From Candidatus Psychracetigena formicireducens (lineage in GTDB: Bacteria > Coprothermobacterota > HKB111), in assembly GCA_018725175.1 (NCBI GenBank), contig QLTX01000004.1:1-35128 (forward strand): DNA of 35,128 nucleotides. Direction: 5' to 3'. Made by a program: the position numbers and the translations under genes. Below, in pieces: positions 8,830 to 23,159 of the stretch; position 1 is the first letter of the stretch; every line of letters begins with the position of its first letter. The notes beneath the pieces are model-generated. The model did no database searches, was not told the origin of the DNA, and saw only the letters and a program-made list of their open reading frames with translations.

Positions 8830-9199
8830 CAATTTGGGCTCCTCCCCGGTAGTAAATAATTATCCTGTTAGGTAAACAAACTATAGTTTGGGGGGGCTCA
8901 CTTATCCAACCCTGATTCATGCATATTTTATCAGGACAGTAGTGGGGTGAGGCTGGGTTTACTCTAATTTTATAACCATCCAGGTTTAGGATTAAAACTC
9001 CCCAGGAACCTTTTAACTCCACAGTTCTCTTTTCGGAGGGAAGGGGTATTTCTGTAAAAACCTGTCTTTTATATTCTACCACTACCGATTTAATGCGCTG
9101 ATTAGCCCCCCCTATTCTGTTTAGAAAGAAGTATATTAAAAAGGATGATAATAACATAAAAATGATAAACAGATAAATCAGTAAATCTCCTCTTTTCAT
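8813..9199 (-). CDS. NusG domain II-containing membrane-anchored protein
   Basis: 128 residues: one N-terminal membrane segment (about 6-26) and an extracytoplasmic beta-rich domain with H-Y-C-P-D-K-I-C, G-W-I and C-L-P-N-R-I-I-I motifs. These are characteristic of the stand-alone NusG domain II family, which is unrelated to transcription in this setting. The three cysteines may form a disulfide or bind a ligand. The ATG overlaps the apbE stop (ATGA) and its end overlaps the Gx-family gene, so the three are a tight unit. Function unknown; it is repeatedly found with extracytoplasmic flavinylation genes. Confidence 0.85.
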   Translation of the reverse strand: MKRGDLLIYLFIIFMLLSSFLIYFFLNRIGGANQRIKSVVVEYKRQVFTEIPLPSEKRTVELKGSWGVLILNLDGYKIRVNPASPHYCPDKICMNQGWISEPPQTIVCLPNRIIIYYRGGAQIDGLTH

Positions 9200-10209
9200 A
9201 ACTCAGGCTGAAATAATCTTTCAGCCTCTCCGGTGAAATGAATCTGTAAATCAGAGGTAATAATTATAGCTGATAATGATTTTTGGGTAAGAAATTCCAT
9301 CCCTTTCTCTAACCCCATAGCAAAAACAGCTGTAGAAACAGCATCGGAAAAAAGACCGTTTTTATTTATTATGGTTACGCTCACTAATTCCTCAGCTGGA
9401 TAACCCGTAAAAGGATTTAGTAAGTGGTGGTATCTTTTTCCACCAATAATATTATACCTTTCGTAATCACCTGAAGTTGAAACTACCGTAGTTGATGGTA
9501 AGTTTAACACCCCAATTATACCATCTTTTCTGGGATGTTGAATTCCAATTCTCCAATAATTCCTTCCAGGTGGAGAACCATAAACCCCTATAGTGCCTCC
9601 TGCATTGATAACAGCTCTATCAACCCCCCGGTTACGAAGTATTCCAAAAGCCCTATCCACAGCATAACCCTTAACCACAGCTCCAAAATCAAGAGATACC
9701 CCGAGAATAGTAAAGGATACCTGACCATCTGGTTCATTTATAATTATATTTTCAGTTTTACTTAAAGATATTGCTTTTTTTATTAAATCTATATCGGGTA
9801 AAACAGAATCCTCTTCTCCTTTAATTATTGGCCTCCAGAGATCAACCAGGGGTCCAATTGCCGGATTAAAATAACCTTCAGTATAACCTGACAACTTTAT
9901 ACTCTCTTGGAGTAAATTTTCAAAGATTGAGGGAATTGAAACAGGTTTTTCAAAAGCATTTTTATTAACATTATAAATAACCGAGTTTTCATCGTAACGA
10001 TTAAAGATTGATTCCAGTAATTTAAAATCATTTAAAATCTCTTCTAAAACTGCCTCTCCTGGTTGATGGTAAATGGTAATTTCTAAATAGGTATCCATAG
10101 CAAAATCTCTAATAGTTTCCGGTCTGGGCTCTGTTTTATTTACCCAGTAGGCAAATGGTATGACTAAAGCTAAGATAATCAGGGGTAGATATTTAAATAC
10201 TCTCCGCAA
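9196..10209 (-). CDS. apbE: FAD:protein FMN transferase ApbE
   Basis: Attaches FMN from FAD covalently to threonine in S/T-G-A-T-type motifs of exported proteins. Residues 8-24 form a membrane anchor without a lipobox cysteine. ApbE signatures follow: F-A-M-D-T-Y (usually M-G-T), L-D-F-G-A-V-V-K-G-Y-A-V-D, I-N-A-G-G, S-T-S-G-D-Y and H-H-L-L-N-P-F-T-G, then S-D-A-V-S-T-A. Length 337. Its likely substrates are RnfG and RnfD encoded 4-5 kb upstream, which carry suitable threonines. The start is TTG at 10209 with GGGAGGT eight bases upstream, inside the radical SAM gene (31-bp overlap). Confidence 0.93.
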   Translation of the reverse strand: MRRVFKYLPLIILALVIPFAYWVNKTEPRPETIRDFAMDTYLEITIYHQPGEAVLEEILNDFKLLESIFNRYDENSVIYNVNKNAFEKPVSIPSIFENLLQESIKLSGYTEGYFNPAIGPLVDLWRPIIKGEEDSVLPDIDLIKKAISLSKTENIIINEPDGQVSFTILGVSLDFGAVVKGYAVDRAFGILRNRGVDRAVINAGGTIGVYGSPPGRNYWRIGIQHPRKDGIIGVLNLPSTTVVSTSGDYERYNIIGGKRYHHLLNPFTGYPAEELVSVTIINKNGLFSDAVSTAVFAMGLEKGMEFLTQKSLSAIIITSDLQIHFTGEAERLFQPEL

Positions 10210-11192
10210 GACTTACAACCTCCCTTTTCTGAAACATTAACCTCATAAACCTCAAATCCGCTCCTTCTTATGGCAACACTACCACACTGTGAGCATAAAC
10301 TGTTTTCTTCCAAACTTTCCCAGGTATTCCCTATATAAATAAATTCTATTCCACACTCCTTACCAATTTCTCTGGCTTTGATTAGCGATGGTAAAGGGGT
10401 TGGAGGAAGATAAGAAAAATCAAGATAGGGAAAAAACCTGGTAATATGCCAGGGGGTTTTCTCTCCCAGTTTTTCGCTTATAAAAGTAGCGATTGACCTA
10501 ATTTCATCCTCAGTATCATTGATGGTGGTAATAATGTTGGTAACAATTTCTACATGGGTCCCGGATTCTCTTGCTTGCAAAGCGGAGGCCATCGGTATTT
10601 TGACATCAGATATTCCTGTTATTATTTTAAAACTGTTCTGAGTAAAAGCTTTGATATCAACCCTGTAAACATCCAGGTATTTGAGTAATTCGCTTAAAGG
10701 CTTTTCCCTGATAAATCCATTGGTAACCATAACCGTGTATAAATTATTCTCCTTAGCAATTTTTGCGCTTTCTATCACATATTCAAACCAGATGGAGGGC
10801 TCGTTATAGGTCCAGCTTACTCCTTTAGAGTTTGTTTTTAAGGCTGTATTTATCAACTGGTGAGGAGTAATATCCCTTAAACTTTCATTTTGACTTGACG
10901 AACGAGATAACTCCCAATTCTGACAGTGGCGACACTTTAAATTACATCCCACCGTCCCTGCAGAAAGAACTGAACTTCCGGGTTTATAATGATAAACAGG
11001 CTTTTTTTCAATTGGGTCAACTGCTAAGGAAGCAACCTGGTTATAAATCAAAGTATAAAGGACGCTGTTAATATTTTCCCTTACACCACACTTACCTATT
11101 TTTCCTTCGGATAGCAGGCAAAGGTTGGGACAGAGAAGGCAACGAACTTTATTATCTATTAAAGGTTCAAAATAAGATGCTTTTCTCAACAA
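10179..11192 (-). CDS. amrS: AmmeMemoRadiSam system radical SAM enzyme (AmrS-type)
   Basis: Radical SAM protein of 337 residues with the cluster motif CNLKCRHC (C83, C87, C90). An N-terminal four-cysteine region (C18, C21, C25, C35) and a C-terminal rubredoxin-like pair (CSQC near 303, CKSC near 327) are typical of the AmrS family, which travels with Memo and AMMECR1 proteins. The reaction is not established. It starts at TTG 11192, 157 bp after the Memo-like gene, and its end overlaps apbE by 31 bp. The 157-bp gap shows no conserved domain; only an unconvincing 33-codon frame lies there. Confidence 0.9.
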   Translation of the reverse strand: MLRKASYFEPLIDNKVRCLLCPNLCLLSEGKIGKCGVRENINSVLYTLIYNQVASLAVDPIEKKPVYHYKPGSSVLSAGTVGCNLKCRHCQNWELSRSSSQNESLRDITPHQLINTALKTNSKGVSWTYNEPSIWFEYVIESAKIAKENNLYTVMVTNGFIREKPLSELLKYLDVYRVDIKAFTQNSFKIITGISDVKIPMASALQARESGTHVEIVTNIITTINDTEDEIRSIATFISEKLGEKTPWHITRFFPYLDFSYLPPTPLPSLIKAREIGKECGIEFIYIGNTWESLEENSLCSQCGSVAIRRSGFEVYEVNVSEKGGCKSCGEYLNIYP

Positions 11193-11349
11193 ATTAAATT
11201 CCTTTTATTTATTGGTACTTTTGAACTTTAAAAAATTAATCTCATCAATGCCAGTTTTTAATCGGATAAAGTTTAATTGTTGTTCCACAGAATTTATACC
11301 TTCCATACCTACCAGGTAAAAACACCTCTTCTGAAGCCTTTTTTCACTT

Positions 11350-12138
11350 TTACTCTATACCTCCCACCAGATAACCTACACCAAAAGGACCTTCATAAGA
11401 ATACAGCTTTGTCTGAAAGTTTGAATCAGAGAATGCCCCAATTAAAGTCATTAAAGGTCTATAGCCACATTCCCCCGCTCCCTCTAATAACTCCCAGTCC
11501 ATATTTTTTACCCTAAAAACATCGCCGGTTTCAAAGAAATTAGCTACCATGCTATCAAATAATTTTCCCTGGGGGTTATATCCAGCAGGTGCGTTTAAGG
11601 TTAAACGATGCGATAAATCACCACTGGCAACTATCAGTAGATTTCTATTCAATTCTCGTGCAGTTTCGCTGATAATTTTTCCAAAGTCAATATGATAATC
11701 CGCTCCCTCCCAGGCTATACTGGTGATAACCAGCTTCCCCTTGATCCCTTTTTTATGTAAAAAATATAAGGGTATCATGGTGCCATGGTCCAGGGAAGTT
11801 TTATATAAGGGATTGAATTTAACCCTATTTTCCTTAGAGATTAGGCGTGAAATAAATTCTTCGTCACATTCAGCAGAAAGAGTTATCTCAGGAAAACCAA
11901 AATTGAAAAAATTCCCTTTAACCTCTCTGGAAGTTAGAACCGATATGGCATTTCTGGAAACTGGGGTGTGGGGGCTAATAATAACGATAGTATCAATGCT
12001 AATCTCTTCCAGAGATTTAAGGGCTTTTTCCATGCCTTTTAAGGTTTTATTAACTTCCAGTAGCCTTTTAGCACCGATTTCTTTTATTAATAATGGAGGG
12101 TGGGGAAAAAGAAAACCTTTTTTAACCGGCATGCACAT
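11350..12138 (-). CDS. Memo-like / LigB-fold AmmeMemoRadiSam protein, without AMMECR1 domain
   Basis: 262 residues of the class III extradiol dioxygenase (LigB) fold. It opens with G-F-L-F-P-H-P-P (H13), then I-S-P-H-T-P (H57), a D-H-G-T-M-I-P-L segment and V-A-S-G-D-L-S-H, matching the N-terminal half of the clostridial AmmeMemoRadiSam protein A. In many relatives this half is fused to an AMMECR1 domain; here the protein stops right after the F-G-V-G-Y-L-V motif that ends the LigB part. The remaining 157 bp before the next gene are too short for AMMECR1. The first 17 bp overlap rnfB. Substrate unknown. Confidence 0.85.
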   Translation of the reverse strand: MCMPVKKGFLFPHPPLLIKEIGAKRLLEVNKTLKGMEKALKSLEEISIDTIVIISPHTPVSRNAISVLTSREVKGNFFNFGFPEITLSAECDEEFISRLISKENRVKFNPLYKTSLDHGTMIPLYFLHKKGIKGKLVITSIAWEGADYHIDFGKIISETARELNRNLLIVASGDLSHRLTLNAPAGYNPQGKLFDSMVANFFETGDVFRVKNMDWELLEGAGECGYRPLMTLIGAFSDSNFQTKLYSYEGPFGVGYLVGGIE

Positions 12139-12949
12139 GCACCGTGGTATAGTTAACTATGCATTTAGTAGGACATTTTTCTACACAAACACCGCAGTTA
12201 TTACACAAAGTATAGTCAATCACAGCCAGATTTCCTAAGGATGGTTCAAGATGGATTGCCCCTTGAGGACAGTTCTTAACACAAATGCCACATTTAATGC
12301 AACCTACCTGACAGGCTTTTCTGACTTCAGGACCTTTCTGAGGCGAAACACAGGAAATGATAACTGGATTATCTCGAGGAAAAATATCAATAATTTTTCT
12401 GGGACAGGCTTTAACACATAAACCACAAGCAGTACACTTACTTTCATCAACTAGGGGTAAATTATCAAGGGACATCCTTAGAGCGTCAAAAGGACATACT
12501 TTTACGCAATCTGCTAACCCTAAACAACCGTAAAAACATTGCTTAAAACCACCAGAAATCTGAGAAGCGGCATTACAGGTATTAATTCCATAATATTCAG
12601 CCCTACGAGAGGCTCGAGCTTCGTCTCCCTGACATATGATACAGGCAATACCAGGTTTTACCTGTGAAACCTCAATTCCTAATAAATTTCCAATTTCAGC
12701 AACTACTTTGTTTCCTCCCACAGTACATTTTTCTGGCACTAATTCACCTCGTAAGATGGCTTCAGCTAATTGCCTGCAGCCGGGATAACCGCAAGCTCCA
12801 CAATTTGCCCCGGGTAATAGATTTTGAATCAGCTCTAAACGAGGATCTTCTTCAACTTTAAATTTCTGGGAAAATAAGGCTAACCCCAATCCAAAAACCA
12901 GTCCTAAACCACCGGTAATTATTAAACTATGAATAATAAATTCAATCAC
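12122..12949 (-). CDS. rnfB: Rnf complex subunit RnfB (multi-cluster ferredoxin subunit)
   Basis: Electron-entry subunit of the ferredoxin:NAD+ oxidoreductase. It has an N-terminal membrane helix (about 6-26), a 4Fe-4S domain with C50, C53, C58 and C75, and four further ferredoxin-type cysteine groups: CFYGCLGLADC, CTACGLC, CIKCGIC and CNNCGVC. That makes roughly five clusters, more than in proteobacterial RnfB and in line with clostridial forms. Length 275. The start is GTG with GGGAGGT six bases upstream. The end overlaps the Memo-like gene by 17 bp, tying that gene to the rnf transcript. Confidence 0.95.
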   Translation of the reverse strand: MIEFIIHSLIITGGLGLVFGLGLALFSQKFKVEEDPRLELIQNLLPGANCGACGYPGCRQLAEAILRGELVPEKCTVGGNKVVAEIGNLLGIEVSQVKPGIACIICQGDEARASRRAEYYGINTCNAASQISGGFKQCFYGCLGLADCVKVCPFDALRMSLDNLPLVDESKCTACGLCVKACPRKIIDIFPRDNPVIISCVSPQKGPEVRKACQVGCIKCGICVKNCPQGAIHLEPSLGNLAVIDYTLCNNCGVCVEKCPTKCIVNYTTVHVHAG

Positions 12950-12961
12950 AATTATACCTCC

Positions 12962-13537
12962 CTACTTAGCCATACCGACAAATCCCATAAAGGCTACTGA
13001 GAGAATAGCAGTTACTATAAATACTATGGGATAACCTTCCAGAAATTTTGGTACATTGCTGTGCTTTATCCTCAGCCGTAGGTTGGCTAACAGAAGCATA
13101 GCCAGAGTGTAACCCCAGGCAACTCCGACAGAATTAACAATTGACTCTATCAAGGTATATCCCTCTCTTTGATTTATAAAAGTAAGTGCCAGAATAGCAC
13201 AGTTAGTAGTTATCAAAGGTAGGTATATCCCCATAACATGATATAGGGAAGGAATGCTTTTCCTGAGATAAATCTCTACCAATTGAACCAGAGAAGCAAT
13301 AACCAGGATAAAGATAAGTGTACTTAAAAAAGTTAACTCCAGTGGTTGTAAAATAAAAACATTCAGAAACCAGGTTACTACTCCGGCTAATACCATTACA
13401 AAAGTTACTGCCCACCCCATACCCAGAGCAGGTCCGGGTTCAGTAGTCATTCCTACATAAGAACAAAGTGCTAGGAATCTCATAAGAACAATATTATTAA
13501 CAAGTAAAGCGGCAATGAAAAGATTAAGAAGATCCAT
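12962..13537 (-). CDS. rnfA: Rnf complex subunit RnfA
   Basis: 191-residue protein with six membrane segments, one of the two homologous inner-membrane subunits that hold a cluster between them and form the ion-translocating core. Family elements seen are the N-terminal A-A-L-L-V-N-N-I-V-L and L-I-T-T-N-C-A-I-L, the latter with the conserved cysteine near residue 113. The ATG overlaps rnfE by 14 bp, and the GGAGG site lies inside rnfE. In this family coupling is to Na+ or H+; the sequence here does not decide which. Confidence 0.95.
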   Translation of the reverse strand: MDLLNLFIAALLVNNIVLMRFLALCSYVGMTTEPGPALGMGWAVTFVMVLAGVVTWFLNVFILQPLELTFLSTLIFILVIASLVQLVEIYLRKSIPSLYHVMGIYLPLITTNCAILALTFINQREGYTLIESIVNSVGVAWGYTLAMLLLANLRLRIKHSNVPKFLEGYPIVFIVTAILSVAFMGFVGMAK

Positions 13538-14147
13538 GTTTATGTCCTCCGTTACTTTTCAGTTTAAACAGGTTATTGAATATGGCGATCATAATGCCGA
13601 TAGCAAAAAATGCACCTGGAGGAAGAATCATTATCAACGCAGGTTCAAAACCATCAAAAGGTAGAGAAACCCCCAAAATAGTTCCCTTGCCGAGAAGTTC
13701 TCTCGCGCCTGAAAGTAGTATTAGGATCAAGATAAAACCAATTCCCATCCCCAGTCCGTCAGCAATTGACCTTATCAGGGTATTTCTGGAGGCAAAAGCT
13801 TCTGCTCTACCCATAATAATGCAGTTAACTACAATAAGAGGAATGAAAATACCAAGAGCTTTATGCAGGCCGGGAAAATAAGCTGCCATAGATAAGTCAG
13901 TAATAATCACAAAGGTAGCTATAACAATGATAAATATGGGTATCCTGATTTCCTTAGGGACAATATTCCTGATAAGCGCGATGGTGAGGTTTGAACCCAG
14001 AAGAACAAAGGTGGTAGCAAAACCCATACCAATCCCGTTCATGACAGTTGTGGATACTGCCAGAACCGGGCATAAGCCTATCATCAGTTTTAAAACAGCG
14101 TTTTCCGTGATAATGCCATTCATAAAATCTTTCCAGAGTTGTTTCAT
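13524..14147 (-). CDS. rnfE: Rnf complex subunit RnfE
   Basis: Membrane subunit homologous to RnfA, with six hydrophobic segments and the conserved L-I-V-V-N-C-I-I-M-G-R-A-E-A-F-A region that includes the cluster cysteine. I choose the ATG at 14147 (207 residues), which overlaps the rnfG stop as TAATG and gives the usual M-K-Q-L-W-K-D-F beginning. A TTG nine bases upstream (14156) is possible but would sit one base from the GGGAGG site. The C-terminus is histidine/glycine-rich (G-G-H-K-H-G). Confidence 0.94.
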   Translation of the reverse strand: MKQLWKDFMNGIITENAVLKLMIGLCPVLAVSTTVMNGIGMGFATTFVLLGSNLTIALIRNIVPKEIRIPIFIIVIATFVIITDLSMAAYFPGLHKALGIFIPLIVVNCIIMGRAEAFASRNTLIRSIADGLGMGIGFILILILLSGARELLGKGTILGVSLPFDGFEPALIMILPPGAFFAIGIMIAIFNNLFKLKSNGGHKHGSS

Positions 14148-14713
14148 TATCTCCAAGCCTCCCTATTTCTTAATACATAATCTGCTACTTTCCTTACCAG
14201 TTTAGCCACTGCTTCTGAAGATTGAGTTGCTCCTGTTATAGCAGTTAAATCTTCATTAATGGTCAAGGGATCGTTTATATTTTTACTTAGGAACATACCG
14301 ATAAATGGTGCTTCAGCAATTTTAGAGCCAAGACCTGGAGTTTCCCTATGCTCTATTATCTCAATCCCGGTTATTTTATTATCAATGGAAATTCCTATCA
14401 ATATTACTATAGGGCCTCCATAACCTTCTTCTGTAACCCCTTTAATTGCTACTCCAACCGGGTTTTCCTCTGAGCCAAAACCAAGATATATATTGGTGAT
14501 GGTCATTGCCGAATCATCAAGAGGTTTAAGCTCCGAGTTATTCAATTCTTGAAAACTAATAGTCGAAGGTAATACCTCTAATATCGCCAGCTTTAGCTCT
14601 GCAACTCTTCGTTGTTCAATAATAGGTTTGGTTTGAAAATAAACAAAAGCTAATCCCCCTGCTGATATTGCTCCTACCAGCATCAGTATAAAACCTAGTC
14701 GTAGAACATTCAT
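14147..14713 (-). CDS. rnfG: Rnf complex subunit RnfG (covalent FMN)
   Basis: 188 residues: a membrane anchor (about 7-27) followed by an extracytoplasmic FMN-binding domain. The flavinylation motif is T-G-A-T-Q-S-S, with T163 the predicted attachment site. Other family marks are G-Y-G-G-P-I and E-T-P-G-L-G-S-K. It shuttles electrons at the outer face between RnfD and the membrane core. The ATG overlaps the rnfD stop (ATGA). ApbE encoded downstream in the same array is the obvious flavin transferase. Confidence 0.95.
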   Translation of the reverse strand: MNVLRLGFILMLVGAISAGGLAFVYFQTKPIIEQRRVAELKLAILEVLPSTISFQELNNSELKPLDDSAMTITNIYLGFGSEENPVGVAIKGVTEEGYGGPIVILIGISIDNKITGIEIIEHRETPGLGSKIAEAPFIGMFLSKNINDPLTINEDLTAITGATQSSEAVAKLVRKVADYVLRNREAWR

Positions 14714-15645
14714 TTACGCACCATCCCATATTTTCTGGGAAAGGTTGCCTGTTCCAACATAGGTGTAAAGGCATTCATAATTAGGATGGCAAAAGTAACC
14801 CCTTCGGGATAACCACCAAAAACCCTGATAGTGATAGTTAATAGACCACAACCTATGCCAAATAAAAGCTTTCCCCAGGGTGTAATGGGGCTGGTAACAT
14901 AATCTGTTGCCATGAAAAATGCCCCCATAAGAATCCCCCCTGCCAGGAGTTCAAAGACTGGATCTCTACCCAGGGTCAGGCTCAAAATAGCTGCTGATCC
15001 CAGGTAAGCAGCAGGTATCTGCCATTCAATAGTTCTTGATAATAATAAGAATATACCTCCTATTATCAGGGCAATGGCTGAGGTTTCACCTAAAGAACCG
15101 GCAATATTACCTAATAATAAATCCTGATAAGAAGGCAATGGTAGATTATCTCTGAAAAAAGCCAGAGGAGTAGCTGTGGTTATCCCTGAAAAAGGTTGAA
15201 CAAAAGTTGTCAGGTGGGTAGGCCAGGAAATTAATAAAACTGCCCTTCCAACCAGCGCTGGATTAAAAGGATTATGCCCAAGACCTCCAAAAAATTCTTT
15301 CGCTACAATAATAGCAATAGCGCTACCCACAATGGGAATCCACCAAGGAGAGGTCGGGGGTAAAGTTAAAGCAAGTAATAATCCGGTAACCACACTGCTG
15401 GAATAGGTTCCGGTGATAGGTTTTCGTTTAAACAGCCTCAATATGATAAATTCAAATAAAACCGCCGAAGCAACTGATAAACCCACAACTTTTAAAAAAC
15501 TAATCCATCCAAAAAAGTAAAAAGCTGCTATAGAAGCCGGTATCAGGGATAGTATAACTCTATTCATTATTTTATCGCTGTTGATATTGGCATGAAAATG
15601 GGGAGAAGGTGAAATTATAACTTTACTTAGATTCAATTCTGCCAA
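14710..15645 (-). CDS. rnfD: Rnf complex subunit RnfD (covalent FMN)
   Basis: Ion-translocating NqrB/RnfD-type membrane subunit of 311 residues with about nine hydrophobic segments. G-H-N-P-F-N-P-A-L (about 123-131) and the FMN motif T-T-A-T-P-L (156-161, T159 the likely attachment residue) are clear. The start is TTG at 15645 with AGGAGGT eight bases upstream; it follows rnfC by 13 bp. It ends by overlapping rnfG. Confidence 0.95.
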   Translation of the reverse strand: MAELNLSKVIISPSPHFHANINSDKIMNRVILSLIPASIAAFYFFGWISFLKVVGLSVASAVLFEFIILRLFKRKPITGTYSSSVVTGLLLALTLPPTSPWWIPIVGSAIAIIVAKEFFGGLGHNPFNPALVGRAVLLISWPTHLTTFVQPFSGITTATPLAFFRDNLPLPSYQDLLLGNIAGSLGETSAIALIIGGIFLLLSRTIEWQIPAAYLGSAAILSLTLGRDPVFELLAGGILMGAFFMATDYVTSPITPWGKLLFGIGCGLLTITIRVFGGYPEGVTFAILIMNAFTPMLEQATFPRKYGMVRK

Positions 15646-15658
15646 CTTATCCTACCTC

Positions 15659-16960
15659 CTATGACTTTGAACTCGTCATTTTTATTTTAAACAGTTCGGT
15701 TTTGGCAACTTTAACATAGTGAACAAGGGGAATATTAGCTGGACAGACATAAGAGCACTTACCACACTCAAAACAGTCAGAAGCTCCATAAAATTCTGCC
15801 ATTGAATAGTCGCCTAACTTAGTATTGGAAGCGATATAGGCTGGCATCAACCTCAGAGGGCAATTTAGAACGCACCTGCCGCACCTTATACAATCTGCAG
15901 CTTCTTGAAACCTGGTTTTCTTTAGAAACAACAAACCAGATGTTCCCTTTATTATAGGTACTTCAAGAGTAGCTTGAGAAAAACCAGTCATAGGTCCACC
16001 CATAATAAGCCTGGAGTAACTATCAGAGAACTCAACTAAATTATTTATAACATCTTTGACCATTACCCCTAAGTGAACTTTAACATTGATAGCTTCATTT
16101 ACAGCATCCCCAGAAATAGTAATTACCTTCTCAGTAAATACTTTACCTTCAAAAACAGCCTCTGTTAGGCTAATAGCAGTTGATACATTGCTAACCACTA
16201 CACCCACATCCAGAGGAAGTCCTCCCCGGGGTACTTCTTTTCCAATAATAGTCTTAATCATTACTTTTTCAGCTCCCTGTGGGTATTTACTCGGTAAAAC
16301 AAAAACTCTAATATCTGAGGTTTGTCTGACCATTTCTATTAGTAGGTTAATAGCATCCTTTTTATTATCTTCAATAGCAATTAACCCCTTTTTGGCTCCT
16401 ACTGCTAACATGATAAGTTTTAAGCCCGAAATTAATTTTTCTGGATTTTCCAGCATCTGCCTGTGGTCTACAGTTAGAAATGGTTCGCATTCTGCTCCAT
16501 TGATAATGGCATATTCAATCGGTTTAGTTGGGTTTAACTTTACATGAGTTGGAAAGGCTGCGCCACCTTGTCCAACCAACCCAGCTTCTCTTGCTCTTAA
16601 TCTGACTTCATCTGGGGTAATAGGATAATTTAATGGACTTAGCAATATCTCATCAGTATTACCATTTGCTTCTATAGTAATTGACGCCATCTCTCGACCA
16701 AGCATCGGGTGAAACCAGGGAGAAATTGATTTTACAATTCCACTTATAGATGAATGAATGGGAGCAAAAATATAACTTGGAGAATCTCCAATAACCTGCC
16801 CTTTTATTACAGTAGCCCCTGCTTTTACAGTCGGTTGAGCTTGTGCTCCAGTATGTTGTTGCATCAACATTACAACTCTTTTGGGAATTGGAAGATTAAT
16901 TATCGGTTTTTTACTGGAATATTTGAACTCAGGTGGATAAAACTCATGTTCAAGAATCAT
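15659..16960 (-). CDS. rnfC: Rnf complex subunit RnfC (NADH-binding)
   Basis: Cytoplasmic subunit that binds FMN and NAD(H) and carries two 4Fe-4S clusters. The N-terminal barrel sandwich is followed by the NuoF-like flavin domain with G-L-V-G-Q-G-G-A-A-F-P-T, then two cysteine groups near the C-terminus (CIRCGRCVLNCP and CFECGKCSYVCP). Length 433, close to clostridial RnfC. It heads the rnfCDGEAB order usual in clostridia. The ATG has AGGAG seven bases upstream and overlaps the PHP gene by 11 bp, so Rnf is co-transcribed with the sensory cassette. Confidence 0.96.
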   Translation of the reverse strand: MILEHEFYPPEFKYSSKKPIINLPIPKRVVMLMQQHTGAQAQPTVKAGATVIKGQVIGDSPSYIFAPIHSSISGIVKSISPWFHPMLGREMASITIEANGNTDEILLSPLNYPITPDEVRLRAREAGLVGQGGAAFPTHVKLNPTKPIEYAIINGAECEPFLTVDHRQMLENPEKLISGLKLIMLAVGAKKGLIAIEDNKKDAINLLIEMVRQTSDIRVFVLPSKYPQGAEKVMIKTIIGKEVPRGGLPLDVGVVVSNVSTAISLTEAVFEGKVFTEKVITISGDAVNEAINVKVHLGVMVKDVINNLVEFSDSYSRLIMGGPMTGFSQATLEVPIIKGTSGLLFLKKTRFQEAADCIRCGRCVLNCPLRLMPAYIASNTKLGDYSMAEFYGASDCFECGKCSYVCPANIPLVHYVKVAKTELFKIKMTSSKS

Positions 16961-17696
16961 CTTTTCTCCTTAACCATCTGCCTTCTATGTTTCTTAAGGC
17001 TAATTTTAACTCTTCCCAGGTAGGTTCGTTAACCCAAGCCTGAGTGACAAATCTACCTATAGTTGGAAGGTCATGAGCATCAGAACCATAAATAATCCCG
17101 ACATTTTTAGGAATTATCGGTTTACAATTTGTATAATTGTCTATTTCTACCCCATCAATATCTATATCAGGGGGTATAAAACCTAATTGAGAATAAATAC
17201 TAAAAGCTGGACGGTTAATATGAGCCAGAATTACCAGGACTTCATAGGTTCTGGCCAGCTTAATGACAGTATCAAGCGGTAAATCAACGGAAAATAATAG
17301 TAATTGCTTTTCAACTTTAATCACCATATCATTATCATTGACCAGGCATTGAGGTTTTATAGCAGTTACATCATCCATAATTGAGGGTGATTTTTTAAGA
17401 ATTTCAACTTCAAACCTTAGTGCTTGTTGGTAAGAACGAAAATATAACAACAGGTGAACTTCTTCTTTGGTTTGCACTTCCATTGCCGGGATAAGCTTTA
17501 CACCACTTATTTTACCCCGCTTACAGAAACCCGGATAATTACGAACTGAATGGTGGTCAGTTATGCCAATTAAATCTAAACCTTTCTTTTTGGCTTCCGC
17601 TAAAACTTTTTTGGGGCTCATATCCCAGGTAGAACAAGGGGATAAGACAGAGTGTATGTGCAAATCAAAGTTATACCACTGCAAATATAGTATCAC
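16950..17696 (-). CDS. PHP-domain metal-dependent phosphoesterase
   Basis: 248 residues with the PHP metal-site motifs D-L-H-I-H-S (11-16), T-D-H-H-S and the C-terminal G-S-D-A-H-D. Such proteins hydrolyse phosphoester bonds of small molecules or nucleotides; the substrate here is unknown. The start is GTG, overlapping the DRTGG stop (GTGA), and the end overlaps rnfC. In fermentative anaerobes PHP genes like this often accompany DRTGG, anti-sigma-type ATPase and hydrogenase-like genes, so a signalling role is plausible but unproven. Confidence 0.88.
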   Translation of the reverse strand: MILYLQWYNFDLHIHSVLSPCSTWDMSPKKVLAEAKKKGLDLIGITDHHSVRNYPGFCKRGKISGVKLIPAMEVQTKEEVHLLLYFRSYQQALRFEVEILKKSPSIMDDVTAIKPQCLVNDNDMVIKVEKQLLLFSVDLPLDTVIKLARTYEVLVILAHINRPAFSIYSQLGFIPPDIDIDGVEIDNYTNCKPIIPKNVGIIYGSDAHDLPTIGRFVTQAWVNEPTWEELKLALRNIEGRWLRRKDDS

Positions 17697-18025
17697 CTTA
17701 TCCCGGACAAATATAAACTTCCGGAAAGTTCATAAGAAGGTAATGAACTTTTTAGAATTGTTATCCCTTCTTCCTGGGCTTTGTCAATCACCTCCTCATT
17801 AACCTCCAGATTAGAGGTTACTATGACTGCCGCTACCTTACAAAGCGAGGCAACAGCAACTACATTCATATGTGTTTGAATGGTTAACCACAAATCACCT
17901 TCTTTAGCATTCCCCATCACATAACTGAGTAAGTCTGAAACAATACCGCTCCTTACTTCTACTTCCAGGTTACCTTCGCTTATTACCTGTAAATTCAAAC
18001 TATCAATAACTTCTCTTAGTAACAA
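17693..18025 (-). CDS. DRTGG-domain protein (first copy, next to PHP)
   Basis: 110-residue single-domain protein of the DRTGG type, the alpha/beta fold related to the N-terminal half of HPr kinase and to an inserted domain in some phosphotransacetylases. Features: G-D-L-W-L-T-I near residue 40, a hydrophobic strand V-A-A-V-I-V-T-S, and I-T-I-L-K-S-S-L-P-S-Y-E-L-S-G at the end. It probably binds a small ligand or a partner. The start is TTG with GGAGG upstream. A diverged paralogue lies at 20186-20527. Confidence 0.8.
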   Translation of the reverse strand: MLLREVIDSLNLQVISEGNLEVEVRSGIVSDLLSYVMGNAKEGDLWLTIQTHMNVVAVASLCKVAAVIVTSNLEVNEEVIDKAQEEGITILKSSLPSYELSGSLYLSGIR

Positions 18026-18040
18026 ATAACTATACCTCCT

Positions 18041-19321
18041 TTATTTAAATCTCTGGGGTGATGGACCAAGGCGAGATAAATCCGCAACCTCTTCAGCTAA
18101 TTTTTTTAGTTTATCTTTTAAAACGAAAATGCAATCTGTTATATAAGACCATCCCAATACCACATCTTCAGCAAAAGCTCTGCAGGTAGGGGCTCCGCAA
18201 GCACCACAATCTATACCCGGAAGCGTATCCAGGATATGTTCTAATTGCTCAAATTTCCGAAGCGATACTTCCATTTCTTCATCCAACTTTAACACCGGTC
18301 TTTCAGTAATCTGTTTTTTTAGGTCAAATAAACCAATGTTAAAATCATTAATCAACTCTTCTCGCCTCTCATCAGAAACCAAGGTTTTTGGTGATTTCCT
18401 CGCCCTTCTAAAATACTGCATCAATACCACCGGAGACAGAGCATTAAGAATCCCACCTGCACAACCATAATCACAAGCCCAGAGCTCTATAATATCTGGA
18501 GAGAGATTATGTTTTATCTCTTCTTCATGAAGGGCATCTTTTATCCGATTTATACTGCATAAAGACAATATGTCTTTCTCGGGTATAGCTTCTGAAAACC
18601 ACTCACCGCAGCAAGCTATAATTCCTTCACTTAAATCTCCAGAGGGTGTTTTTTCAAAATACCGACGAGCCAGGTGATAAAAATGATTCATAGGTATAGC
18701 ATAATCTAATCGAGATGAGTCTATACCCAGTGGAAATTTAATAGAAGTGATCTGTGCTGGACAGGTAGTAAGCAGGGCTACCTTTATTTTGTTATCTTTT
18801 TTCTTAAACAGTCCAGCACTAATCTCCCAGGGAGAGTCAAACATAGCAACATTGCTCAATAAGTTGGGAAAACTTACAGTTAGCAATCTTAAGACACTTG
18901 GGCATACAGGGGGTATAAACCCCTTTTTCTTACCTGCTTTATCCATATGCAAATGTAATAACTTTGGATAAGATTCAAAAATTAAACTCATATCATAAGC
19001 TGCTTTAAACCCCAGGGATTTAATAAACTTGTTTACTGTAGCAAAAGCTGGAGGAGTATCAAAATGTAAATAAAAAACCGGAGGTATTAACACCACAACA
19101 TTATCTCTTTCAGGAATACTGGAAATATGGTCAAAAATCACACCTCGGGCTTTATAAGGACAAACCCGTATACACTCTCCACAATCTATACACCTTATTG
19201 GTAATATACGAGCTTTCCCATCTACCACTCTGATTGCTTCAGTGGGACAGTTGCGAACACAATGGGTGCACCCTTTACATAGGTCGTCTTCAATAGTAAT
19301 TGAATGCATGTAACCCTTCAC
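18041..19321 (-). CDS. [FeFe]-hydrogenase-like iron-sulfur protein, probably sensory
   Basis: 426 residues in three parts. First, a dicluster ferredoxin (CKGCTHCVRNC at 15-25, CIDCGECIRVC at 44-54). Second, a hydrogenase large-subunit C-terminal-like region. Third, a 4Fe-4S domain (C372, C375, C380, C397). The four cysteines that would hold the H-cluster cubane are recognisable: C140 (P-V-C-P), C187 (T-T-C-P-A-Q), C283 and C287 (A-C-D-Y-G-C). The proton-relay cysteine is Val139, the L2 lysine is Gln190, and the methionines of L2 and L3 are Thr185 and Trp281, so classic H2 turnover is doubtful. GTG start with AGGAGG five bases upstream; GTGA overlap with the preceding gene. Confidence 0.85.
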   Translation of the reverse strand: MKGYMHSITIEDDLCKGCTHCVRNCPTEAIRVVDGKARILPIRCIDCGECIRVCPYKARGVIFDHISSIPERDNVVVLIPPVFYLHFDTPPAFATVNKFIKSLGFKAAYDMSLIFESYPKLLHLHMDKAGKKKGFIPPVCPSVLRLLTVSFPNLLSNVAMFDSPWEISAGLFKKKDNKIKVALLTTCPAQITSIKFPLGIDSSRLDYAIPMNHFYHLARRYFEKTPSGDLSEGIIACCGEWFSEAIPEKDILSLCSINRIKDALHEEEIKHNLSPDIIELWACDYGCAGGILNALSPVVLMQYFRRARKSPKTLVSDERREELINDFNIGLFDLKKQITERPVLKLDEEMEVSLRKFEQLEHILDTLPGIDCGACGAPTCRAFAEDVVLGWSYITDCIFVLKDKLKKLAEEVADLSRLGPSPQRFK

Positions 19322-20211
19322 TTTAACCTCCTGATGAGATTAACTACCGAGTAAACTTTTGTACCTACACCCACACGGCTGTCAATCTGAAAAATATCAG
19401 AATTTCTCTTTATATTTGGCAACCCCATTCCTGCACCAAAACCCATTTCTCTTATATAGTCCGGCGCAGTAGTAAACCCTTCTTGCATAGCTAAACTCAC
19501 ATCAGATATTCCTGGTCCCTTATCCTCAGCAGTCACCTCAATTTTTTCGGAGTTTATTTTAACCTGCAAAAAACCTTTATCAGCATGGATTATAATATTC
19601 ATTTCAGCTTCATAAGCTATTATACCTGTCCTCCTTAAATCTTTAGGGTCAATGGATAATTGTTGCAGGGATTTCCGCATCTGCAGGGAAGCATTCCCGG
19701 CATGAACAAAATCCCTTCCTAAAACCTGGTAAGTATAGCTTATTACTCCTTCTGATGGAATAGTTTTTTTAACAACCATGCTCGTGTCCAGAGCTTCCTG
19801 TAAAAACGCAAATAATGACCACCAATACACTACCCCTATAACTTTAAACTCCTCATCAACCACAGGAAGCCGCCCATATTTAAAGCGGTTCATTTCTCTA
19901 AGAGCTTCAATGAGAGTTTTACTTAGAATTAAGCATTTTACCGGTGTAGTCATATATTTACTTACCGGAGCTTCCAGGTCTTTATTCTCAATGCAGATAA
20001 TCAGGTCACTAATAGAAATAATACCTAAAAGATGACCTTCATCGTCAGTTACTGGAACCCCATCAAGTCTTCTAATTCTCATTAACTCTTTGATATGTCT
20101 CATCTGCCAATAGGGAGTGACCTGTGGAATATTCCTTACCATCACTTTTTCTACAGAATAAGAAAGAATATCTGGTCCTAACTTATTAGTTACTTCTGAG
20201 TCCATGGTCAT
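19318..20211 (-). CDS. CBS-pair / anti-sigma-type ATPase fusion
   Basis: About 297 residues. Two CBS motifs occupy roughly 15-145 (V-E-K-V-M-V-R-N-I, D-G-V-P-V, then V-S-K-Y-M-T-T-P-V, G-R-L-P-V-V-D), a typical adenosyl-nucleotide sensor. From about 190 comes a GHKL ATPase of the RsbW/RsbT kind: N-box E-A-E-M-N-I-I-I-H-A, G1 D-K-G-P-G, G2 G-F-G-A-G-M-G. It could be a serine kinase or anti-sigma factor switched by nucleotide binding. Start uncertain: a TTG at 20232 is open but lacks a ribosome site; the ATG at 20211 follows a GGAA. Either start overlaps the DRTGG gene. Confidence 0.85.
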   Translation of the reverse strand: MTMDSEVTNKLGPDILSYSVEKVMVRNIPQVTPYWQMRHIKELMRIRRLDGVPVTDDEGHLLGIISISDLIICIENKDLEAPVSKYMTTPVKCLILSKTLIEALREMNRFKYGRLPVVDEEFKVIGVVYWWSLFAFLQEALDTSMVVKKTIPSEGVISYTYQVLGRDFVHAGNASLQMRKSLQQLSIDPKDLRRTGIIAYEAEMNIIIHADKGFLQVKINSEKIEVTAEDKGPGISDVSLAMQEGFTTAPDYIREMGFGAGMGLPNIKRNSDIFQIDSRVGVGTKVYSVVNLIRRLK

Positions 20212-20527
20212 ATAAAATTCCGCAGGTTTCAAACAACGATAGATCAGTGGATACTATAGGAATATCTAACTCCTCTGCAAGATTCAGGATGGTATCATCG
20301 GTCTTTTTTCCACTTACAATTATTATTCCTACCATCCCAACCATTTCTGCTGTTCTCACAATCTGGGGCGTAGCTAAAGAGGTTATCAGAAGGGCTTCTT
20401 CGGTGGGAGAAGCGAGAACATCTGACATTAAATCAGCTGCCCAGGCTTTATCTATTTCTATACTTTCCAGATGCTGGCAAACACAAATTCTACCCTTAAT
20501 CAGGTTAACAATGTAATTAAGTTTCAC
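20186..20527 (-). CDS. DRTGG-domain protein (second copy, next to valS)
   Basis: 113 residues, diverged from the copy at 17693-18025 but with the same layout: E-E-A-L-L-I-T-S, a hydrophobic V-G-I-I-I-V-S-G-K strand and the terminal D-I-P-I-V-S-T-D-L-S-L-F-E-T-C-G. The start is GTG inside the last codons of valS (11-bp overlap). It opens the sensory cassette that leads into rnf. Ligand and partner unknown; the neighbouring CBS/ATPase is the first candidate. Confidence 0.8.
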   Translation of the reverse strand: MKLNYIVNLIKGRICVCQHLESIEIDKAWAADLMSDVLASPTEEALLITSLATPQIVRTAEMVGMVGIIIVSGKKTDDTILNLAEELDIPIVSTDLSLFETCGILYDHGLRSN

Positions 20528-23159
20528 ATCCTTCTCCTTGAAGATAATTTATGATTTGGTCAATTTTCGCTATTTGTTTATGATACTCTTGCTCTCTATG
20601 CTTAAATTCTTCAATGGTAGCTGGTGAAGCTTTTTCCCTGAATAGAGGATTCCTGAGATAATTTTGGACCCTTTCCAACTCAGTGGATAATTCAACCAGA
20701 CTTCCTTTAAGTTTTATAATTTCTTCTTCAATCTCTACTAAACCTTTCAAGTTGACAAATATTGTAGTTCCCCTGACTACTTGAATAGCTGAACTTTTAG
20801 GCCAGGTTTCCAGGTCATAGGCGATGTTCAAATCTCCAATATCTACCATATTTTTGATATAGTTAGCACCTTCAACTAATGATTGATATTCAAAGGCATC
20901 TGAGGGATGAATAACCACTTTTATGGGGCGTGTGGGTTTAATTTTGAATAAACTACGAATGTTCCTTATTGAAGAAATAATACCAAAGATGTAATTTGTT
21001 TTTTCCAGAGCTAATTTACATTCAGGAAAATCAACTTTACTAACCCACTCCTGGATTATCAAAGGCTGTAAATTATCCCGATTAAGATTACACCAGAGCT
21101 CTTCAGTAATAAATGGAATAACTGGATGCAATAGAATTAAGATGTTTTTCAAAACATAATATAGGGTAAACAGGGTTCCCTGGCTATCTTTCTTGAATTT
21201 GGATATTTCCAGGTACCAATCACAATAATCCTTCCAGAAGAACTCTTCAATTGCTTTTACATATCCCGCCATATCATAAGAATCAAATTTATCGTTAATC
21301 TCTTTAACTAATTCAGATAAACGCGATAGGATGTACCTGTCAAACAGGTCTAAATCAGTCTCTTCAGGTATTTTTTCAAACTTATTCTCCCCGAGGGTAT
21401 GAATAACATAGCGAGAAGCATTCCACAGTTTGTTCATGAAATTCCTGCTATGTAGGAGTAACGGTTTAGTTAAAGTGATATCCTGACCTCCGAGGGTGCT
21501 TAAAGATGTTAGGGTAAACCTGAGGGCATCGGTACCAAAATCTTTTATCAAATCAAGGGGATCAAGAACATTTTTCAGAGATTTAGACATTTTTCTGCCT
21601 TTCTCATCTCTCACTAAACCATGTATTAAAACATTTTTAAATGGTGGTTTACCGGTTAACTCTAATCCTGCCATGATCATCCGGGAAACCCAAAAGGTCA
21701 GTATGTCATAACCTGTGACTAAAACTGAAGTGGGATAGAAATATTGTAAATCCGGGGTTGAATCAGGCCAACCAAAAACTGAAAAGGGCCATAAAGCAGA
21801 ACTAAACCAGGTATCCAGAACATCTTCAACTTCTTCAAAGTTCTCAGAGGAACAATGACTGCATTTTTCAGGTGTTTCCCGGGAAACGATAACTTCTCCG
21901 CAAGACTGACAAATCCAGGCTGGAATGCGGTGTCCCCACCAGAGTTGCCTGGAAATACACCAATCTTGGAGATTTTCCATCCAATCCAGATACACTGCAG
22001 ACCATCTCTCTGGAGTGAAGATAATTTCTCCACTTTTTACTTTCTCAATAGCTGCTTTTTTAATTTCTTGGACACCTAAAAACCATTGCACAGACAGCAA
22101 TGGTTCTATTATAGTATGGCACCTACTGCATCTTCCCGGAGAATATCTGTAAGACTCAGTTTTTACCAATCTATTTTCCAGGTTAAGTTTTTTTAGCATT
22201 AATTCCCGGGCTTCCAATACTGATAAGCCAGCAAAGTCACTACCAGATTCTTCAGCCATAAAACCATGTTCGTTAATAACTCTTATGAGGGGAAGATTAT
22301 GCCGTTTTCCGATTTCATAGTCGAGAAAATCGTGACCTGGGGTTACTTTTACCACCCCAGAACCAAATTCTGGGTCAACCAGAGTGTCAGCAATAATAGG
22401 CAAATTTCTACCAACAACGGGCAAAATAGCTACTTTTCCAACAACTGATTTATACCTCAAATCATCTGGATGAACCGCTAAAGCAACATCCCCCGGCATA
22501 GTTTCTGGCCTGGAGGTTACTATTTCTAGGTCACCACCCTGTTCAAGTTCATAAGTTATATGGTAAAGTTTTCCTTCTACCTCTTCCCTCTCTACTTCAA
22601 TATCAGAAATTGCGGTATGACAGTGCGGACATAAATTGACCAGGTATTCGCCTCGATAAATATAACCTTTTTCATACATGCGAACAAAAAACTCAGTTAC
22701 TGCACGAGAGCAAATGTTGTCAAGGGTGAATCTTTCTCTGTTCCAGTCACAGGAAGCCCCCATTTTTTTTATCTGAGAGGTAATAACCCAATGATATTTT
22801 TCCTTCCACTCCCACATATACTTCTGAAATTCCTGTTTACCTATTCTGGATCTCTCTATACCCAGTTTACTAAGCTCTTCTTCCACCACATTTTGCGCAG
22901 CAATCCCTGCATGGTCGGTTCCCGGTACCCATAATGTAGGAATTTTTTGCATACGATTAATCCTGACTAAAATATCCTGCAATGTTACATCAAGAGCATG
23001 TCCTATATGAAGAGAGCCGGTAACATTGGGAGGGGGTAAAACAATAACAAAAGGAGGTGAACCAGCAAATGTTTGTGGTGTAAAATAACCTTTCTCCTCC
23101 CAGAATCGGTACCACTTCTCTTCTACTTCTTCCGGGTTATATCTGGTAGATAAGTTCAA
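20517..23159 (-). CDS. valS: Valyl-tRNA synthetase
   Basis: Charges tRNA-Val. Class I synthetase of 880 residues with HIGH (H51-H54, in G-S-L-H-I-G-H-A-L) and K-M-S-K-S motifs, the valine-type editing domain (T-S-R-P-E-T-M-P-G-D-V-A-L-A-V-H-P), zinc-like CxxC pairs near the middle and the C-terminal coiled-coil arm typical of ValRS (about 805-875). The start is TTG, 8 bases after a GAGGT element; a nearby ATG is out of frame. No T-box leader fits in the 52 bp upstream, so regulation seems to come from the operon. Confidence 0.96.
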   Translation of the reverse strand: MNLSTRYNPEEVEEKWYRFWEEKGYFTPQTFAGSPPFVIVLPPPNVTGSLHIGHALDVTLQDILVRINRMQKIPTLWVPGTDHAGIAAQNVVEEELSKLGIERSRIGKQEFQKYMWEWKEKYHWVITSQIKKMGASCDWNRERFTLDNICSRAVTEFFVRMYEKGYIYRGEYLVNLCPHCHTAISDIEVEREEVEGKLYHITYELEQGGDLEIVTSRPETMPGDVALAVHPDDLRYKSVVGKVAILPVVGRNLPIIADTLVDPEFGSGVVKVTPGHDFLDYEIGKRHNLPLIRVINEHGFMAEESGSDFAGLSVLEARELMLKKLNLENRLVKTESYRYSPGRCSRCHTIIEPLLSVQWFLGVQEIKKAAIEKVKSGEIIFTPERWSAVYLDWMENLQDWCISRQLWWGHRIPAWICQSCGEVIVSRETPEKCSHCSSENFEEVEDVLDTWFSSALWPFSVFGWPDSTPDLQYFYPTSVLVTGYDILTFWVSRMIMAGLELTGKPPFKNVLIHGLVRDEKGRKMSKSLKNVLDPLDLIKDFGTDALRFTLTSLSTLGGQDITLTKPLLLHSRNFMNKLWNASRYVIHTLGENKFEKIPEETDLDLFDRYILSRLSELVKEINDKFDSYDMAGYVKAIEEFFWKDYCDWYLEISKFKKDSQGTLFTLYYVLKNILILLHPVIPFITEELWCNLNRDNLQPLIIQEWVSKVDFPECKLALEKTNYIFGIISSIRNIRSLFKIKPTRPIKVVIHPSDAFEYQSLVEGANYIKNMVDIGDLNIAYDLETWPKSSAIQVVRGTTIFVNLKGLVEIEEEIIKLKGSLVELSTELERVQNYLRNPLFREKASPATIEEFKHREQEYHKQIAKIDQIINYLQGEGCET

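Follow-up and report, generated by a model that had tools for sequence, protein, structure and literature searches.

Results

Five genes connect valS to the rnf operon

The window, by which we mean the whole 35,128-nucleotide stretch analysed here, carries on its minus strand, in 5'-to-3' order, valS, DRTGG1, CBS-HATPase, an Fe-S sensor gene, DRTGG2, PHP and rnfCDGEAB. The five genes downstream of valS (20517..23159), referred to below as the module, encode a DRTGG-domain protein of 113 aa (DRTGG1, 20186..20527; Pfam DRTGG 28.9 bits), a 304-aa CBS-GHKL ATPase (19318..20232; two CBS domains 80.8 bits, HATPase_c 28.9 bits), a 426-aa group D-type [FeFe]-hydrogenase-like sensor (18041..19321; Fe_hyd_lg_C 37.7 bits, FeS 49.6 bits), a second DRTGG-domain protein of 110 aa (DRTGG2, 17693..18025; 29.5 bits) and a 248-aa PHP-family phosphoesterase (16950..17696; PHP 38.9 bits); in a profile search of the window, all module domains scored above the Pfam cut-offs. 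The six rnf genes, which encode the membrane-bound, energy-converting Rnf complex, lie in one operon. rnfC (15659..16960) matched TIGR01945 with 461.9 bits (cut-off 245.95), and rnfD (14710..15645), rnfE (13524..14156) and rnfB (12122..12949) passed their NCBIfam cut-offs; rnfA (12962..13537) scored 227.7 bits, 1.6 bits under its NCBIfam cut-off of 229.3, and rnfG (14147..14713) was named by its position and its conservation in a sister species. Genes for a Memo/LigB-type protein (11350..12138), a radical SAM protein (10179..11192) and an ApbE flavin transferase (9196..10209) follow rnfB on the same strand.

The CBS-HATPase and sensor genes overlap by 4 nt, a 15-nt gap separates the sensor gene from DRTGG2, and PHP overlaps DRTGG2 by 4 nt and rnfC by 11 nt; the 47-nt overlap between DRTGG1 and CBS-HATPase depends on start codon choice. 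These coordinates and domains agree with an earlier note on this DNA, which had described five genes joined to rnfC by overlaps or very short gaps. The note had missed the 11-nt overlap between the end of valS and DRTGG1, by which the five-gene set is fused at both ends. In a scan of the window, which returned 38 promoter-like and 15 terminator-like matches (31.4 and 8.2, respectively, in shuffled sequences), none of these matches convincingly split PHP from rnfC.

A DNA-pattern scan of genome contigs found this arrangement in one other genome only, that of the second species of the genus (G008), in which the 11-nt PHP/rnfC, 11-nt valS/DRTGG1 and 47-nt DRTGG1/CBS-HATPase overlaps are retained and the rnf gene order after rnfC is identical. 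Between the two species, at a dS of about 0.5, dN/dS was 0.06-0.18 for the five module genes, and every module gene is thus under purifying selection; the value was 0.06 for both DRTGG1 (88% identity) and DRTGG2 (95% identity). The retention of these junctions, together with the low dN/dS values, indicates that the arrangement is more than chance.

The Fe-S protein has group D architecture

The sensor combines an N-terminal 2x[4Fe-4S] ferredoxin domain with an H-domain (Pfam Fer4 families and Fe_hyd_lg_C), and its H-cluster cysteines C140, C187, C283 and C287 are invariant across a 25-sequence alignment. A Cx2Cx4Cx16C cluster motif (CGACGAPTCRAFAEDVVLGWSYITDC) is located at its C terminus, and Pfam detected no PAS domain. 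The AlphaFold model had a mean pLDDT of 90.8, and its best Foldseek matches were all [FeFe]-hydrogenases. In group D enzymes, C299 is not conserved and M353 is exchanged for Ser/Thr (PMC8163306). The C299 position is occupied by V in the window sensor, so that the proton-shuttle cysteine is gone; the M353 position is T in the window sensor and A in G008. The Fe-S protein, which the earlier note had correctly called [FeFe]-hydrogenase-like, therefore has, judged from its sequence, the published group D (M2e) architecture. The C-terminal FeS domain (PF04060) is also found in RnfB.

The group D proton pathway E252-E289-S249-D265, which is highly conserved in the group without being a condition of membership (PMC10407848), is incomplete in the window sensor: the E289 equivalent is kept, D265 is lost in both species, and the E252 position is a shifted E in the window sensor and Q in G008. 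K358 is likewise replaced in both species, by Q in the window sensor.

The closest described counterpart is TamHydS of Thermoanaerobacter mathranii (group D/M2e), which shares the two N-terminal [4Fe-4S] clusters, the four-cysteine H-domain, the exact C-terminal Cx2Cx4Cx16C cluster, and the absence of both a PAS domain and the proton-shuttle cysteine. The TamHydS gene lies upstream of a bifurcating group A hydrogenase, whereas the window sensor gene lies upstream of rnfCDGEAB, and the window sensor differs from TamHydS in its K358 replacement by Q, its loss of D265 and a genome in which HydF was not found. The group C HydS of the hfsABCD operon (Thermoanaerobacterium, Ruminococcus, Thermotoga) is also a hydrogenase-derived sensor with a C-terminal Fe-S cluster, but it contains a PAS domain and the target is a ferredoxin hydrogenase; HfsC is homologous to serine phosphatases, and descriptions of the operon include no DRTGG/PHP set. 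In Thermoanaerobacterium, deletion of hfsB redirects fermentation, which is genetic evidence for the regulatory role of a hydrogenase-derived sensor (PMC11837493).

Sensing of redox state or of H2

HydF, the only member of HydEFG considered here, was not found over its cut-off in the incomplete assemblies of the window genome (G000) and of the sister species. No group A hydrogenase was found in the window's assembly (93% complete). The absence of hydABC recorded in the earlier note is correct for the window and, within the limits of this assembly, extends to the whole genome. Apart from the window sensor, the assembly gave one Fe_hyd_lg_C match, a fragment of sensory type at the end of a contig (C200:49-513). 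The possibility that C200 is a contaminant was rejected, as its GC content and tetranucleotide profile match those of the window, and the contig is probably genuine.

The replacement of K358 and D265, the Q at the E252 position in the sister species and the failure to find HydF argue for redox sensing rather than H2 sensing, and we tentatively favour a [4Fe-4S] redox sensor over an H2 sensor. We consider it improbable that a full H-cluster senses H2, as has been proposed for TamHydS, and that Rnf is adjusted to the H2 supply of an H2-driven lithotroph; the residue replacements and the HydF result count against this alternative, but the sensor retains the E289 equivalent as well as all four H-cluster cysteines, TamHydS still turns over H2 while lacking the same proton-shuttle cysteine (PMC8163306), and life on H2 has been proposed for a related population (PMC9751293). 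A missing HydF is also no proof of a missing H-cluster, because the Dictyoglomus-like genome G085 encodes a clear group A6 HydA and likewise has no detectable HydF. In raw counts, D265 was kept in 14 of 21 sequences from genomes with HydF versus 3 of 22 from genomes without it; a general rule that HydF-less genomes have decayed proton pathways was unsupported once relatedness was controlled, a comparison that left three independent pairs and no power.

The ATPase, DRTGG and PHP proteins

The nucleotide-binding motifs N, G1 and G2 of the CBS-HATPase protein are intact in the window and in its relatives, and the match to the SpoIIAB-type family TIGR01925 was weak (49 bits; cut-off 135). In the PHP protein, the metal site (H13, H15, D47, H48, E73, H81, H159, D206 and H208) is invariant in a 24-sequence alignment, and the fold of the protein resembles that of EndoQ. 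The Fe-S sensor, the nucleotide-binding GHKL ATPase and the PHP protein with its whole metal site conserved correspond to the iron-sulfur input, nucleotide-sensing kinase-like part and phosphoesterase that had been proposed for this set. The accompanying suggestion that the set could tune Rnf expression found no direct support. Because none of the five module proteins contains a DNA-binding domain, the output is more probably post-translational, or carried by a second messenger, than exerted directly on transcription.

The module usually adjoins hydrogenase-type genes

In most other bacteria, the five genes keep company with enzymes that handle hydrogen or formate. The sensor gene was present in 38 of 386 sampled genomes, including that of the window. 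With neighbour genes labelled by single-seed scoring, the module adjoined NuoE/NuoF-type HydC/HydB genes in 42 of the 63 loci examined, consistent with the earlier statement that such signalling genes are known beside electron-bifurcating hydrogenase operons; group D genes are often, though not always, encoded with a group A hydrogenase. Neither hyd nor rnf genes lay beside the module at 19 of the 63 loci, in some cases because the contig ends, indicating that adjacency is not essential. Only in this genus, represented by two species, was the module next to rnfC. The rnf adjacency is thus narrowly more than a peculiarity of one genome, which the earlier note had named as the outcome that would count against its idea, and linkage to rnfC was not seen beyond the one genus. 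In 32 further genomes that carry both the module and rnfD, the latter was either on a different contig or separated by 88 kb or more, and the same separation was seen in 54 genomes of one further phylum. Our literature searches on DRTGG or PHP proteins with hydrogenase found no paper on this gene set.

HydB, like RnfC, carries a Complex1_51K FMN domain, and the usual neighbours of the module include a Complex1_51K subunit. This, and the PF04060 domain common to the sensor and RnfB, would suit an accessory electron-transfer or assembly set that is no regulator. In such a set, the Fe-S protein would associate physically with NuoF/RnfC-type subunits, and the other module proteins (ATPase, DRTGG and PHP) would help with assembly or gating of the complex. 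We regard this as improbable: where neither hyd nor rnf adjoins the module, a partner of this kind is missing from its neighbourhood and, to our knowledge, the Rnf and HydABC complexes that have been solved are active without these proteins.

A second rnf-linked lineage and the ancestry of the module

The module is also joined to rnf genes in the lineage of G053, G104 and G105, within a NuoE-HATPase-Trx-NuoF-RnfD-RnfE-RnfA cluster. In G053, the module lies directly upstream of this cluster; in G105 it is split by contig breaks, and in G104 only PHP is visible, in the region of a contig start. As in the window, the rnf genes are downstream of the module and valS(-folC) is upstream, but NuoE/NuoF stand where RnfC would be expected, and the cluster contains no RnfC, RnfG or RnfB. 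A literature search on RnfC/NuoF hybrids found nothing on point. The ancestry of this module differs from that of the window's: a single origin for both rnf-linked modules was rejected by the sensor (AU p 0.0008) and PHP (0.029) trees, and was not rejected by the short ATPase-domain tree (p 0.32). Given the sensor and PHP trees, the module and rnf probably met twice, independently.

Vertical inheritance within the phylum was also rejected for the sensor, as placing it with G001-G003, genomes of the same phylum, was incompatible with its tree (AU p 0.0009); the PHP (p 0.11) and ATPase (p 0.30) trees did not reject this placement. The nearest relatives of the window sensor are those of Dictyoglomus-like genomes (G085 and G100-G103; tree support 98/97), a relationship weakly recovered in the PHP and ATPase trees. 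These genomes share the order DRTGG - CBS-ATPase - sensor - DRTGG - PHP and the same CBS fusion. Unlike in the window, their module precedes HydC-HATPase-Trx-HydB and has an extra DRTGG gene, and their rnf genes are elsewhere, directly after valS.

This last arrangement, with rnfCDGEAB immediately after valS and the module at another site, bears on whether the placement in the window is a positional by-product. In some deep-branching bacteria, rnf and the module each have a tendency to adjoin valS, and the two could have ended up in a shared operon with no functional link, the module acting elsewhere, for example on an NAD-linked [NiFe] hydrogenase; a [NiFe] Hox hydrogenase has been reported in the related Cedars population (PMC9751293). 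G175 has the order valS-folC-X-rnfC, in G156 and G286 the order is valS-X-module, away from any hyd or rnf gene, valS lay near the module in 5 of the 63 loci, and it was upstream of every rnf-linked module locus that was readable there. A sixth apparent valS neighbour (L065) was rejected: with 32% identity over 183 aa, this gene is something other than valS. We nevertheless consider a by-product rather unlikely, as the exact valS-module-rnfC placement and its overlaps have been held in two species at a dS of about 0.5, and the module met rnf genes a second time in another lineage. The earlier note had not considered an explanation by valS adjacency.

Discussion

We tentatively read the five genes as a portable module for redox signalling that has a group D-type sensor at its core and that, in this genus, has been placed between valS and rnfC, is made with Rnf and probably acts on it; we would put this reading just short of even. 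Regulation of Rnf by the module is plausible on the genomic comparisons presented here. The module would normally serve HydB/HydC-type NAD(H)-ferredoxin enzymes. Electrons from reduced ferredoxin, which we infer to be sensed in place of H2, would enter the two N-terminal [4Fe-4S] clusters of the sensor, and the H-domain cubane and the C-terminal Cx2Cx4Cx16C cluster would report the redox state. The switch may consist of the two DRTGG proteins and the CBS-GHKL ATPase, which possibly also reads adenine nucleotides, and the PHP protein would provide the output by removing phosphate from a protein or a small nucleotide, such that the activity or amount of Rnf would follow the ferredoxin/NADH balance.

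A broader proposal, which we regard as doubtful, starts from a hydrogenase-derived sensor that has given up H2 sensing and follows the ferredoxin/NADH balance solely via [4Fe-4S] clusters. Together with the other four module proteins, this sensor would control NADH:ferredoxin oxidoreductases in general, and the set would have joined Rnf genes on two or more occasions, in one case beside a standard RnfC and in another beside a NuoE/NuoF-RnfDEA hybrid.

How cells set the spending of low-potential ferredoxin through Rnf is poorly known. We know of no dedicated Rnf regulator encoded within an rnf operon, and a literature search on rnf regulation found none. Group D-type proteins are already known beside bifurcating hydrogenases, as putative sensors, and placement in an rnf operon is the departure. 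If our reading of the module is correct, it would constitute a dedicated, operon-encoded Rnf regulator made up of five deletable genes, and the idea of a 'sensory hydrogenase' would widen to that of a redox reporter attachable to different ferredoxin-NAD machines. The window also offers a natural case of a group D protein with neither an adjoining group A hydrogenase nor a detectable HydF, the role of group D having so far only been inferred. Relatives of this little-known bacterium come from serpentinite springs, and the related Cedars population is presumed to live on H2 (PMC9751293). The genus, too, presumably depends on H2, in serpentinite water that is hyperalkaline and poor in CO2, a setting in which redox budgeting is tight.

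Gene organization and conservation of the module

The five module genes (DRTGG1, CBS-ATPase, Fe-S sensor, DRTGG2 and PHP) were recovered on the minus strand at 20527-16950, ahead of rnfC on the same strand. All domains of the module exceeded the Pfam cut-offs, the widest internal gap was 15 nt, and overlaps of 11 nt joined the module to rnfC and, at its upstream end, to valS, confirming the earlier note's claim that five genes are joined to rnfC. The rnf operon is complete in the window (rnfC, D, G, E, A and B). Memo/LigB-type, radical SAM and ApbE genes (9196-12138, same strand as rnf) directly follow rnfB, in an order identical in G008, the second species of the genus; ApbE at this location is consistent with flavinylation of RnfG/RnfD.

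The PHP/rnfC, valS/DRTGG1 and DRTGG1/CBS overlaps are also identical in G008, and the dN/dS values of the five module genes between the two species (0.06, 0.10, 0.12-0.13, 0.06 and 0.18; dS 0.45-0.88) revealed purifying selection in all of them. Together, these gene comparisons indicate that the module-rnfC arrangement is old within the genus and has been kept by selection. Rnf and a [NiFe] Hox hydrogenase have been reported in a sister taxon from The Cedars (PMC9751293), which the window's genome may itself represent.

Features of the module proteins

The Fe-S protein contains two ferredoxin-type [4Fe-4S] sites, an H-domain and a C-terminal FeS domain (Pfam), and the best PDB matches of its AlphaFold model (mean pLDDT 90.8) were [FeFe]-hydrogenases. 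Group D (M2e) proteins have an N-terminal two-cluster domain, an H-domain, a C-terminal Cx2Cx4Cx16C motif and no PAS domain, and they have lost the proton-shuttle cysteine C299 and carry Ser/Thr in place of M353 (PMC8163306); every one of these published features was found in the window protein. Other residues were located using the GGE and LExxxC motifs as anchors, which in G156, another module-bearing genome, lie 37 residues apart, the same spacing as in TamHydS, the group D enzyme of Thermoanaerobacter mathranii, whose E252 and E289 primers encode SGGE and DFFEGLAC (PMC10407848). By this anchor-based numbering, the window sensor retains the four H-cluster cysteines and E289, carries Q at the K358 position and has lost D265; at the E252 position, the window has E and G008 has Q.

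No HydF over the cut-off was detected in the window's genome, G008 or 20 further module-bearing genomes, whereas 19 of the 42 have HydF, with a truncated copy in G003, of the same phylum as the window, counted apart. The Dictyoglomus-like genome G085, rated 99% complete, encodes a clear group A6 HydA (630 bits; L035 3317-5299), yet no HydF over the cut-off, and the HydF test is therefore not absolute. HydF over the cut-off is absent from all five Dictyoglomus-like genomes, and G085 presumably has a HydF that is divergent or else matures its hydrogenase by an unusual route.

The window's genome carries another [FeFe]-hydrogenase-like gene on contig C200 (L016, 1-1717), whose composition agrees with the window. 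This gene is of the sensory type, with TSSCP and GPCIAKK motifs, and is incomplete at the contig end (243 aa). Next to it lie genes for a 2Fe-2S thioredoxin-like protein (731-991) and a Rex-like repressor (1004-1717).

The N, G1 and G2 motifs of the ATPase domain are intact in the relatives aligned. Its fusion to two CBS domains is restricted to the window's genus, the Dictyoglomus-like genomes and G053/G105, most other modules having an unfused domain of about 150 aa. The DRTGG proteins are conserved. In an alignment of 24 sequences, the PHP protein keeps each of the nine residues expected at its metal site, and its model (pLDDT 93.2) is nearest to the endonuclease Q PHP domain (E 1.6e-15, TM 0.70-0.74, 22-23% identity), a similarity that suggests a phosphoesterase but no particular substrate.

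Distribution of the module

The sensor was present in 38 of 386 genomes sampled across Bacteria (E <= 1e-30); in one further phylum, 56 of 104 genomes had it. Among 63 loci, not all independent (20 are from that phylum, and G119 is counted twice), HydB/HydC-type genes alone were found at 41, both HydB/HydC and rnf at one (G053), rnf alone at two (the window's genome and G008), and neither at 19, several owing to contig ends. The earlier note had set rnf against hydABC as partners of these families; rnf does recur outside the window's genome (3 of the 63 loci in all, the window's included), but hyd predominates (42 of 63).

The usual order is DRTGG-ATPase-sensor-DRTGG-PHP-HydC-HATPase-Trx-HydB, with either HydA or else a NuoG/Fdh-like subunit after it. 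In Thermoanaerobacter, bifurcating hydrogenases have been described with a histidine kinase gene and a group D-like hydrogenase gene upstream (PMC3608648, PMC8163306), and the hyd-linked form is therefore known in outline; no description of the full five-gene set was found in the searchable literature. At five Dictyoglomus-like loci (L030, L059, L060, L090 and L091), the module precedes HydC-HATPase-Trx-HydB without HydA, a diaphorase unit with no adjacent hydrogenase subunit.

Origin of the linkage to rnf

rnfD was present in 37 of the 46 genomes checked first and over the cut-off in 52 of 54 of a second set. Except in the window's genus and the G053 lineage, rnfD and the sensor gene were on separate contigs or 88 kb or more apart in every case, so partnership with Rnf is not a general property of the module.

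The gene order in G053 is valS-folC-module-NuoE-HATPase-Trx-NuoF-RnfD-RnfE-RnfA (NuoE to RnfA, L031 3145-8475), and the same NuoE/F-RnfDEA junction occurs, as far as the contigs extend, in G104 (L127 1951-7253) and G105 (L126 1-3441). No RnfC, RnfG or RnfB was found within the clusters of these three species, which possibly represent an Rnf variant in which a Nuo-type NADH-binding part replaces RnfC.

In the sensor tree, the window grouped with the Dictyoglomus-like genomes (98/97, long branches removed); AU tests rejected a group of the window with G053 (p 0.0008) and one with G001-G003, which belong to the window's phylum (p 0.0009). The PHP tree also rejected a group with G053 (p 0.029) but did not reject one with G001-G002 (p 0.11). 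On module origin, the tree of the ATPase domain was uninformative. The simplest reading of these trees and gene orders is that the module met rnf genes on two separate occasions.

In the Dictyoglomus-like genomes, valS is directly followed by rnfCDGEAB (L128 3719-11241, L133 5577-13100 and L134 4040-11541) and the module lies elsewhere; this conserved linkage may account for where the module sits in the window. The order is valS-folC-X-rnfC in G175, and valS-X-module, with neither hyd nor rnf, in G156 and G286. In the latter two (L062 and L063), the whole or partial module has valS/SPOR-domain genes on one side and mraZ/mraW-like cell-wall genes on the other, the latter resemblance being read by eye from gene starts. 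The window and G053 combine the valS-rnf and valS-module arrangements, so either the module may have been inserted into an existing valS-rnfC operon or, as the strongest rival to a functional link, module and rnf may merely share a favoured site beside valS.

Proposed role of the module

What the analysis shows of the module is its anatomy, conservation and distribution; as to its role, we propose that it is most likely a ferredoxin redox sensor that adjusts Rnf. The redox state of ferredoxin would be sensed through the Fe-S clusters and relayed by the ATPase/DRTGG proteins to the PHP phosphoesterase. The Rnf tuning suggested in the earlier note finds partial support, and Pfam detected no DNA-binding domain in any of the five proteins. 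Deletion of hfsB in Thermoanaerobacterium is a precedent for redox-flux control by hydrogenase-derived sensors (PMC11837493), although HfsB is a group C-like PAS protein and the window sensor belongs to a different family. What is new here is a group D sensor module within an Rnf operon, through which Rnf would be matched to the ferredoxin/NADH balance.
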